A DNA stretch of 34,818 nucleotides. It comes from Chitinophagaceae bacterium (GTDB lineage Bacteria; Bacteroidota; Bacteroidia; Chitinophagales; Chitinophagaceae). The notes under the pieces were generated by a model. It did no database searches. It saw nothing but the letters and a program-made list of their open reading frames with translations, and was not told the origin of the DNA. How positions within the stretch are numbered: position 1 is the first letter of the stretch; every line of letters starts with the position of its first letter. The stretch is taken from assembly GCA_020854215.1 (NCBI GenBank), contig JADZFY010000449.1:1-34818 (forward strand). Direction: 5' to 3'. Position numbers and translations under genes: made by a program. Positions 2,294 to 34,818 of the stretch are shown here, one piece after another.

Positions 2294-4496
2294 ATTGCAT
2301 ATGTTTTTCAATAGCCGTGTCGTATTGTTCTTTCCATACTGTAATATCTCCCCAGTAGTCACCGTCAATTAATAGTTCGCCTTCCGTCACCATGCCTATT
2401 TTCTCAAAGGGTACGGTTGTTGATTGAAGAAATTTCTCGAACACAGGTTGCTGTTCTCCGCTAACGGAAACCACTACCCTACTCTGCGATTCACCAAACC
2501 AAAATGCATCCGGCCTCACCACTTTACCCGTATCGGCTTTAAATCCGAGGTTGCGGTTAAAGCCACTTTCACAAAGGGTAACAAACAATCCGCCTTCACT
2601 GATATCATGGGCAGATTCAATTAGGCCGCGTTTTATCAGTTCGCTAATGGCCTGCTGCAGGTTAAATTCCTTTTCCAGGTCGAAATGCGGCGCGGGTGAA
2701 TATTCCACCTTGTGCAGCTTATGCAAATATTCCGAAGAGTTAATATCGTCGTTCACTTCGCCCAGCAAATACAACAAATCTCCAGCCTGTTTAAAGTCGA
2801 GCGTCATCTTGCCATTGATATCATCCAGCAATCCCACCATACCAATGGTTGGCGTGGGGTAAACCGCGCCGTCCGGACTTTGATTGTAAAAGCTCACATT
2901 TCCGCCGGTAACGGGTGTATCAAATTTCTTACAGGCTTCACCCATTCCTTTAATGGCATATACAAACTGGTAATACACTTCCGGATCGTAAGGATTGCCA
3001 AAATTTAAACAGTTGGTTACGCCCAGCGGAACACCGCCACTGCATACGATATTTCGCGCTGCCTCACTCACGGCCATCATGCACCCTTTAAACGGATCGG
3101 CAAAAACATAACGGCTATTACAGTCTGTGGTAACCGCCAATCCTTTTTTTGTGCCTTTCACTTTTACCACCGGTGCGGCACTGGGCGCATTGGTAGATGT
3201 ATTGCCGGTACCCACCATGCTGTCGTATTGAGTATATATCCAGCGTTTGGAAGCAATATTGGGAATGGTAATGATTTTTTCCGCTATAGCTTTCAAATCA
3301 GAGGGTACGGGTATTGATGCCTGATCAAAAGCTTTGATCTTACTGAAATAAGCAGGTTCACGGTATTCTCTTTCATATACCGGTGCGCCGCCACCCAACA
3401 CCAGACTTTCTGCCGGCATCTCTGCTTCAAGCGTATCGTGCATATAAAAACGAAGCATACCGTCGGTAGTAACCTCGCCAATCTGAGAGCACGGCAAATC
3501 CCATTTATCAAAAATTTTCAGCACATCGGCTTCTCTTCCTTTTTTTACGATCAGCAGCATGCGCTCCTGGCTTTCGCTCAACAAAAGTTCCCAGGCCTTC
3601 ATGCCGGGCTGGCGAGTAGGTACATGGTTCAGATTAATACGCATACCCACACCACCTTTGGCGCTGGTTTCAGCGGTAGAACAAATGATACCTGCCGCAC
3701 CCATGTCCTGCATTCCCACTAAAGCCCCGGTAGGAATAAGCTCCAGACAGGCTTCCAACAGTTTCTTTTCCTGGAAGGGATCGCCTACCTGTACCGCAGG
3801 AAGATCTTCCACACTACTCTCTGTAATATCTGCCGATGCAAAAGCAGCTCCGCCCATACCGTCTTTACCTGTTGCAGAACCCACGATAAATACCGGATTG
3901 CCTTCTCCCTCTGCGGTGGCGCTCACGGTTTGTCCCACCTTTACCACCCCCACACTCATGGCATTCACTAACGGATTGGTATGATAACATTCTTCAAAAT
4001 AAATTTCACCCCCTACTGTGGGCACACCAAAGCAATTGCCATAATGGCCGATGCCATGTACCACACCGTTCACCAGGTGCTGGGTTTTTTCTTCTTCAAT
4101 ATTTCCGAAGCGAAGCGAATTGAGTGCCGCTATCGGCCTTGCGCCCATAGTAAATATGTCGCGATGAATGCCACCCACACCTGTAGCCGCACCCTGAAAA
4201 GGCTCTATAGCAGAGGGGTGATTATGACTTTCAATTTTAAATACAACACCCCAGCCGTCGCCGATATCGGCAAGCCCGGCGTTTTCCTCGCCAGCTTTTA
4301 CCAGGAGTTTGCCACCCTCGCGGGGAAGTGTTTTCAACCACCTTATAGAATTTTTATAGCTGCAATGCTCGCTCCACATCACGGAGTAGGCGCTCAGCTC
4401 GGTAAAGTTGGGTGTGCGTCCGAGAATGGTTTTAATCATCTCAAACTCTTCGGGTCTCAGTCCAAGTTTTTCGGCAGTTTCAACAGTTATTTCCAT
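2274..4496 (-). CDS. purL: Phosphoribosylformylglycinamidine synthase subunit PurL
   Basis: [85 protein letters not shown]. The start was moved to the ATG at 4496, since the upstream extension in the track is not family-like. Confidence 0.96.
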
Positions 4497-32660: not shown

Positions 32661-32668
32661 AATTTCAG

Positions 32669-32739
32669 CACGGGCACAAGGATTCGAACCCTGATCAAAG
32701 GTTTTGGAGACCTCTATTCTACCATTGAACTATGCCCGT
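32669..32739 (-). tRNA. tRNA-Trp (CCA anticodon)
   Basis: Minus-strand ACGGGCATAGTTCAATGGTAGAATAGAGGTCTCCAAAACCTTTGATCAGGGTTCGAATCCTTGTGCCCGT+G; the cloverleaf arms are visible. Confidence 0.95.
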
Positions 32740-34054: not shown

Positions 34055-34279
34055 CTGTTATCTGTTTTTAAGTTGCGTTTTAAAATTGTAGCCGCAACCC
34101 GCAAAAATGATTACAGGCTGCAAACTGATTGCTAAATCCAAAATTTATTAAAACCTCATCTTTCAGAGGCTGTAACACAAAAAACAAGCCGTTGATGACG
34201 ATTGATTGGAGGCAACCTTTCCGCTTATCCACAAAACCACCACCGTTCCAAACCAAATCGGCGTTTCAAAAAACTTTTG

Positions 34280-34351
<72 letters not shown>

Positions 34352-34428: not shown

Positions 34429-34513
34429 AAATGAGCGGTAGTTCGATCTAAAATCGGCCACCTATAGCTTGGATCCGCCGCGGCGGACTACCAAATGAGC
34501 TACTTACTCATTT
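34429..34513 (-). pseudogene. tRNA-Gly-derived relic / tRNA-like element carrying a 14-bp palindrome
   Basis: 19 nt (34455-34473) and 17 nt (34488-34504) are identical to the neighbouring tRNA-Gly (34586-34604 and 34616-34632). The intervening 11 nt are replaced by TCCGCCGCGGCGGA; the T-arm and acceptor are diverged. Confidence 0.8.
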
Positions 34514-34564
34514 CTCTTAAAGAACTTGGCATTGGCTATAACCAACACAATATCGTTTGAACTG

Positions 34565-34637
34565 AGCGGGAGACCGGGCTCGAACCGGCCACCTATAGCT
34601 TGGAAGGCTATCGCTCTACCAAATGAGCTACTCCCGC
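34565..34637 (-). tRNA. tRNA-Gly (TCC anticodon)
   Basis: Minus-strand GCGGGAGTAGCTCATTTGGTAGAGCGATAGCCTTCCAAGCTATAGGTGGCCGGTTCGAGCCCGGTCTCCCGC. Confidence 0.95.
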
Positions 34638-34776
34638 TTGTTAATGTGAAAATATGAAAGTGTGATAAATGTGAAAATTTACCCGAACCCACATATTACA
34701 ACATTCAAAAAGAACTTCAACCATTGTGTTTTCATTTCCACACTTTCACATTTATCGCATTTCCACATTGGCGATG

Positions 34777-34818
34777 TGGGCAAGGATGGATGCGACCCAC
34801 CGAACTCCGAAGAGGACA
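34777..34818 (-). tRNA. Partial class II tRNA, probably tRNA-Tyr (5' part outside window)
   Basis: Minus-strand ...TGTCCTCTTCGGAGTTCGGTGGGTCGCATCCATCCTTGCCCA: long variable-arm hairpin, T-stem GGTGG/CCATC, acceptor 3' strand CTTGCCC+A. Position matches the usual tRNA-Tyr-Gly-Thr-tuf order. The anticodon is not in the window. Confidence 0.65.

Follow-up and report, generated by a model that had tools for sequence, protein, structure and literature searches.

Across the Bacteroidota, tRNA genes of many isotypes are accompanied by a small GIY-YIG nuclease gene and by a damaged copy of the tRNA itself. The arrangement combines an intact tRNA gene, a small GIY-YIG gene of the same orientation and a partial copy of that tRNA with a GC-rich hairpin in place of its D, anticodon or T arm; the mirror order is found too. 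One of the places where it occurs is the slot between tRNA-Gly(TCC) and tRNA-Thr(GGT), and this slot is present in the window, by which we mean the whole 34,818-nucleotide stretch of Chitinophagaceae DNA that was analysed. The window carries a hairpin-scarred copy of tRNA-Gly(TCC) in this slot, and this relic is probably an ORF-less derivative or copy of a tRNA-linked GIY-YIG element, present at copy number one. The link to GIY-YIG genes is not visible from the window alone.

The relic belongs to a cluster on the minus strand, which runs from the end of a tRNA-Tyr at the contig edge through tRNA-Gly(TCC), the relic, tRNA-Thr(GGT), tuf and tRNA-Trp to nusG. The features are as follows.

34564..34637, minus strand: intact tRNA-Gly(TCC), the parent of the copy (ARAGORN, Rfam)
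34514..34563, minus strand: spacer between the intact gene and the relic, with no ORF; the GIY-YIG gene lies here in other families
34518..34526, minus strand: AGTTCTTTA, a boxA-like motif immediately 5' of the relic, its sole occurrence in the window
34429..34513, minus strand: scarred partial copy of tRNA-Gly(TCC), the relic (aligned to the intact gene; no tRNA call; a partner at the equivalent place in genome G006)
34474..34487, no strand assigned: palindrome TCCGCCGCGGCGGA, in place of 11 nt from the end of the D arm and the 5' side of the anticodon arm (sequence, alignment)
34444..34456, minus strand: second hairpin, CGATTTTAGATCG, in the place of the T arm (sequence; the G006 ortholog has CCGATTTGATCGG there)
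34279..34351, minus strand: tRNA-Thr(GGT), the other side of the slot (ARAGORN, Rfam)
32668-32739, minus strand: tRNA-Trp (ARAGORN)
within the cluster, minus strand: tuf and nusG, named from their translations

The relic has the layout AAATGAGTAAGTAGCTCATTTGGTAG-TCCGCCGCGGCGGA-TCCAAGCTATAGGTGGCCGATTTTAGATCGAACTACCGCTCATTT, and the intact gene has AGCGATAGCCT at the position of the palindrome. Two blocks are common to both, CGGCCACCTATAGCTTGGA (34455 in the relic, 34586 in the intact gene) and CTACCAAATGAGCTACT (34488 and 34616), while AGGCTATCGCT is present in the intact gene only (34605) and TCCGCCGCGGCGGA in the relic only (34474-34487). A first-pass annotation had quoted these strings and positions and the replacement of 11 nt by TCCGCCGCGGCGGA, all of which proved correct to the letter; it overlooked that the T arm is also substituted, by CGAT-TTTAG-ATCG on the minus strand. 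The pairing blocks lie where it placed them, AAATGAG at 34429-34435 and 34493-34499, CTCATTT at 34507-34513, and GTAG/CTAC at 34438-34441 and 34500-34503. Allowing up to two mismatches, TCCGCCGCGGCGGA occurs once in the window, against an expectation of 0.04. ARAGORN calls no tRNA at the relic and Rfam finds none there even at E<=1, and neither ARAGORN nor Rfam RF00005 thus recognises the cloverleaf of a functional tRNA. Like the scarred copies in the arrangement, the relic is a same-strand partial copy of the neighbouring tRNA with an arm converted to a GC-rich inverted repeat (TCCGCCGCGGCGGA, plus the T-arm hairpin). It differs from them in that no GIY-YIG gene separates it from the intact tRNA, the 50-bp spacer being free of ORFs.

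The query finds matches in 12 of 13 genomes of the genus, mainly through their intact tRNA-Gly genes, and the part that is the relic's own is matched in three other genomes, G004, G006 and G008. In G006 one scarred Gly copy occupies the window's place and another lies between Tyr and Gly; in G004 and G008 the scarred copy is between Tyr and Gly. The partner at the equivalent position in a second species has 77% identity over 285 bp, flanking gene included, and the junction GGTAG^TCCGCCnnGGCGGA^TCC is identical in G004, G006, G008 and others. The element therefore does not have the absence from all relatives by which the first-pass annotation would have known a private decaying duplicate. Scarred copies of Thr(GGT) are found in G001, G002, G010 and G011, often in tandem, with TCCCGC..GCGGGA-type hairpins for the anticodon arm, and further genomes of the genus hold scarred copies of Gly(GCC). 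As a description, the first-pass annotation's phrase of a duplicated tRNA struck by a small palindromic element is apt.

The window's slot is occupied by a nuclease gene in other families. In a genome from another class of the phylum (locus L212) the order is Tyr, Gly(TCC), GIY-YIG gene, a Gly copy with TCCCGACTTGTCGGGA for the anticodon arm, and Thr(GGT). It was predicted beforehand from this locus that relatives of its protein would sit at Gly(TCC). A search with the L212 protein gave some match in 239 of 396 genomes of the phylum, and the four best matches in other genomes (63, 53, 54 and 49% identity; families f30, f63, f33 and f62) all lie directly behind Gly(TCC), with a hairpin-scarred copy of that tRNA directly after them; the matches that rank after these four sit at other tRNAs. 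The scarred copy is followed by Thr(GGT) in three of the four best-match loci and by rpmG and Trp in one. The arrangement Gly(TCC), GIY-YIG gene, hairpin-scarred Gly, with TCCCG..CGGGA for the anticodon arm, is thus present in five genomes from four families other than the window's, the four further loci having been picked by protein similarity. The five hairpins (TCCCGACTTGTCGGGA, TCCCGTACAACGGGA, TCCCGCGAAGCGGGA, TCCCGCCGCAGGCGGGA and TCCCGCAATTCAGCGGGA) differ in sequence and share their place and form; at the sixth pair each of the five is complementary, and three types of pair occur there. In L212 and L245 at least, the cluster goes on to rpmG and not to tuf.

The association with tRNAs extends well beyond glycine. 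Elsewhere in the window's family, scarred Pro and Lys copies are adjoined by a small GIY-YIG ORF. Loci were gathered by Pfam PF01541 or by a protein alignment (A1), with neither tRNA nor palindrome as bait, although A1 was itself built from tRNA-adjacent proteins. This gave 99 GIY-YIG ORFs of the subfamily, about 85-100 aa long, 72 of which have an intact tRNA within 500 bp, on the same strand in every case (72/72) and upstream of the ORF in 55, downstream in 17. The other 27 have no intact tRNA within this distance, some of them being at contig ends or beside relics only. In a sister subfamily (YIxTNK..TVLYTGVTSDL) none of 18 ORFs is near an intact tRNA. On the far side of the ORF a partial copy of the same tRNA is present in 54 of 58 testable loci, and one of a tRNA of another isotype in six of the 58. 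An inverted repeat of at least 6 bp that the intact tRNA does not have, most commonly TCC...GGA, was found in 44 of the 54 far-side copies compared with 23% of shuffles, 44 being an upper figure as some of these repeats are terminators; a stricter count of GC-rich hairpins gave 39 of 54 copies versus 16 of 80 intact tRNAs. Several ORFs run into the 5' part of the adjacent tRNA and take their stop codon from a TAG there (GGATAGAGC, GGTAGCGC).

The subfamily proteins score above the cut-off for Pfam PF01541 (GIY-YIG), the only Pfam family found in them, and no NCBIfam family reaches its cut-off. Six catalytic residues that a GIY-YIG enzyme should have (Y6, Y17, R27, H31, E63 and K67) are invariant in 20 of the proteins. 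Spread on plasmids or phages was considered and rejected, as one protein of the family, used as a single query, had no relatives in plasmid and phage collections.

The nuclease tree follows tRNA identity, and its lineages are faithful to their target site across hosts. On a tree of 56 proteins the amino acid of the tRNA needs 21 changes, compared with a mean of 40 after shuffling, and none of 200 shuffles was as low. All seven Met-linked proteins form one clade (99/97), which spans the window's genus, its family, two other families of the order and another class; Val, Pro and Asn lineages likewise cross families or classes. The proteins of the window's genus are scattered over the tree (at least 11 changes). 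The tree is built on 84 columns only, and its deep forks are tentative.

The window's own genome contains other scarred tRNA copies, of Met, Val, Asn, Pro, Asp, Phe and Gly-GCC. Among its palindromes of the types TCCGCC..GGCGGA and TCCCGC..GCGGGA, 15 of 27 fall within sequence that resembles a tRNA (Gly, Pro, Asn, Val or Met, plus one weak match), and the TCCCGA palindromes add Asp and more sites in Gly(GCC) copies. These 15 sites and the relic's partner in the second species mark the relic as more than a product of chance. Insertion of a generic palindrome was rejected as the whole story on the strength of these 15 sites, though the others lie elsewhere. The pattern TCCCGA..TCGGGA has 18 sites in this genome, many of them away from tRNAs, compared with none for a control pattern. 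Hairpins of the same types are also present at sites remote from tRNAs, and they need not therefore be made by the nuclease. A scan with TTGGTAGTCCGCCnnGGCGGATCC over genome contigs of 84,980 species found the Bacteroidota metagenome-assembled genomes CRAIB_MAG26, ACE_BAC11, ACE_BAC12 and SZAS-19, as well as Algoriphagus litoralis; one more match, in the Deltaproteobacteria (L223), has no tRNA context and was taken as chance. The looser pattern GGTAG..TCCSSC..GSSGGA has many non-palindromic chance matches and served only to pick loci.

Scarred copies without an ORF are found singly or in tandem arrays. At one locus (L244) the scarred copy is followed by a repeat of the first 33 nt of the ORF, and no ORF comes after this repeat. 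At a tRNA-Pro locus (L179) a GIY-YIG copy is accompanied by repeated 3' units that keep the terminator and an ATG and have no ORF. The window's own genome has seven 112-bp ORF-less Pro units on two contigs, one with tRNA-Pro. The relic in the window retains no vestige of an ORF, and no genome of the window's genus was found to have a GIY-YIG gene at Gly(TCC), so that loss of the ORF is deduced from other families: the gene is absent here and present at the same slot in the five genomes described above. The absence of an ORF, the common occurrence of ORF-less tandem arrays and the dispersal of TCCCGA..TCGGGA palindromes to places other than tRNAs would all suit a neutral tandem duplicate of tRNA-Gly, partly replaced by a generic dispersed palindrome with no involvement of a nuclease. 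Such an origin is unlikely, since five genomes from other families have the same slot, order and form of scar together with the ORF, and the same scars flank most of the GIY-YIG genes of the subfamily.

A selected function as a tRNA-like RNA within the tRNA-tuf transcript (a processing signal, a regulator or a decoy for tRNA-binding or tRNA-cleaving proteins) is still less probable, and we regard it as very unlikely. The relic has a strong predicted fold (-31.8 kcal/mol, z -3.9), which includes the outer AAATGAG/CTCATTT stem that the first-pass annotation had proposed. The replacement of one hairpin by another keeps an arm-like shape, and the sixth pair, which varies and stays complementary in the five Gly loci, could also be read in favour of a selected RNA. 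Against this, the terminal stem is not conserved. The G006 ortholog has different ends, lacks the AAATGAG/CTCATTT stem and folds with z -2.2, and the scarred copies of other genomes fold no better than chance, with z about -1, which argues against the earlier suggestion of a tRNA mimic with a processing or regulatory role. Many scarred copies are without the whole 5' or 3' half, and from genome to genome within the genus the copies vary erratically in presence and number. A regulatory or processing RNA was accordingly rejected. So was a known structured RNA family: in the window and 20 related loci the only Rfam family found at curated thresholds is RF00005, which matches intact or near-intact tRNAs, and two sub-threshold matches in the window were taken as chance. 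The relic looks like a nuclease-less remnant without evidence of function.

An assembly artefact joining tRNA-Gly copies, which the first-pass annotation had raised, has next to no probability: the contig does end 181 bp past the intact Gly gene, within a tRNA-Tyr whose T-loop bases are unusual, and identical tRNA-Gly sequence forms the end of another contig from this genome, but the relic is internal to its contig and the same kind of element stands in the same place in the independently assembled G006 (ACE_BAC11).

Integrative elements that target tRNA genes leave the tRNA intact, and a partial copy marks their far end. The Bacteroidota elements resemble them in having an intact tRNA and a partial copy at the far end, but there is no integrase, the insert is one nuclease gene of about 85 aa, often less than 400 bp in total, and the partial copy is broken by a new hairpin. 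REP/RAYT systems and the Rickettsia palindromic elements place short palindromes in many locations, possibly spread by a nuclease, and in both respects the present palindromes are similar. Unlike those, they have few copies per sequence, keep their form while varying in sequence, and replace an arm of a spare tRNA copy rather than lying between genes or inside ORFs. A REP family has one palindrome at high copy, often over 100; the three related, variable palindrome types of the window's own genome have 11, 16 and 18 sites. The rtT repeats of the Escherichia coli tyrT operon are likewise partial tRNA repeats in the spacer of a tRNA operon; we know of no hairpin replacement and no nuclease gene among them, and to our knowledge both features separate the Bacteroidota copies from rtT.

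Free-standing GIY-YIG genes linked to tRNAs are an already known kind. SegB of phage T6 is a free-standing GIY-YIG homing endonuclease from the tRNA region of T-even phages (PMC13096335; Brok-Volchanskaya et al. 2008, cited there). Its gene lies beside tRNA-Tyr and is reported to be required for the tRNA segment to be amplified in tandem, likely through recombination between the 5' region of the tRNA and the 3' region of segB (PMC13096335). In phages such genes are widely associated with tRNAs of many isotypes, and SegB is reported to act in tRNA-containing sequence (PMC13096335). The Bacteroidota genes are likewise small, free-standing and adjacent to a tRNA gene, and as in a SegB-like enzyme the relatives' proteins have a GIY-YIG domain with the conserved residues and lineages faithful to a target site. 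They differ from phage SegB, as it is portrayed in the parts of PMC13096335 that concern it, in being chromosomal and phylum-wide, with each lineage faithful to one tRNA. A hairpin-scarred partial tRNA copy is present on their far side; the description of SegB in those parts of PMC13096335 includes none. In the open-access papers searched, no description of the arrangement in bacteria was found; it is wide in the Bacteroidota and apparently undescribed.

By analogy with phage SegB we infer homing by the cutting of tRNA genes. The nuclease would cut its own tRNA gene, and repair of the break would copy the element in or duplicate the tRNA segment in tandem. The hairpin-substituted copy would neither work as a tRNA nor be open to cleavage, which would leave the host with one good tRNA, and loss of the ORF would leave scars like the relic in the window. 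The hairpins may originate by copying or cutting at extruded stems, a speculation hinted at by the hairpin-for-hairpin replacement at the arms. The wider proposal, that these genes form a phylum-wide selfish family with one tRNA gene per lineage, which spreads by cutting tRNA genes, renders the occupied site immune through the hairpin-scarred partial copy left beside the tRNA gene and has its ORF-less copies amplified or mobilised in trans as non-autonomous elements, is a tentative one, to which we give slightly less than an even chance. Few targets in a cell are as conserved as tRNA genes. A nuclease family stationed next to nearly every kind of tRNA gene, with a hairpin-scarred partial copy beyond it, would, if the proposal is true, be a novel means by which a selfish gene exploits an essential one and spares its host. 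It would account for pseudo-tRNAs and spurious 'tRNA-Stop' calls in Bacteroidota genomes, and it predicts directly that the intact tRNA gene is cut and the scarred copy is not. It may also bear on changes in bacterial tRNA gene number, because phage SegB amplifies tRNA segments (PMC13096335).

The contig terminates within the tRNA-Tyr (34776-34818), whose T loop is GTCGCAT and not TTCGAAT, with T54 and A58 both changed. Another contig of the same genome (C21) has a normal Tyr followed by the identical Gly, and the Tyr at the end of the window is therefore likely to be a second, relic Tyr or the product of a repeat-collapsed assembly. Between Tyr and Gly (34650-34770) there is a long imperfect AT-rich inverted repeat (TGTGAAA..TTTCACA); in relatives this spacer has AAATTTGAAATTTCAAATTT-type repeats. 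Five further contigs of this genome (C105, C239, C261, C357 and C49 of G000) end within scarred tRNA arrays, so the array lengths in it are underestimated.

The motif AGTTCTTTA next to the relic suggests a boxA by its sequence. A 16S gene was available in one of the four genomes used to check this; there AGTTCTTTT is in the 16S-23S spacer and only AGATCTTTGAAA in the leader. The 16S-23S spacer of G008 contains AGTTCTTTTAAAT, and behind it (L242, about 3080-3280) a tRNA-Ile copy scarred by TCCGCCGCGGCGGA precedes the real tRNA-Ile.

In the tandem scarred Thr copies at L003 (1721-1998) a 7-nt loop survives; ARAGORN labels these copies 'tRNA-Stop(tta)' and Rfam labels them tRNA, which creates a risk that false suppressor tRNAs are annotated. 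In A. litoralis (L220, 6823-6902) a lone tRNA-Gly(CCC)-like sequence carries TCCGCCATGGCGGA and a terminator, with no intact tRNA-Gly within 8 kb. The window's own genome also has a member of a second GIY-YIG subfamily (YIxTNK..GVTSDL; L113, C466:8879), which here and at similar loci in relatives is never near tRNAs; the flanks of L113 have GCGAGGC..GAAGC-type repeats that are REP-like in look. One genome, G371, has 22 matches to the alignment, and eight GIY-YIG ORFs lie there in tandem at a spacing of about 365 bp (C34:6982-9775).
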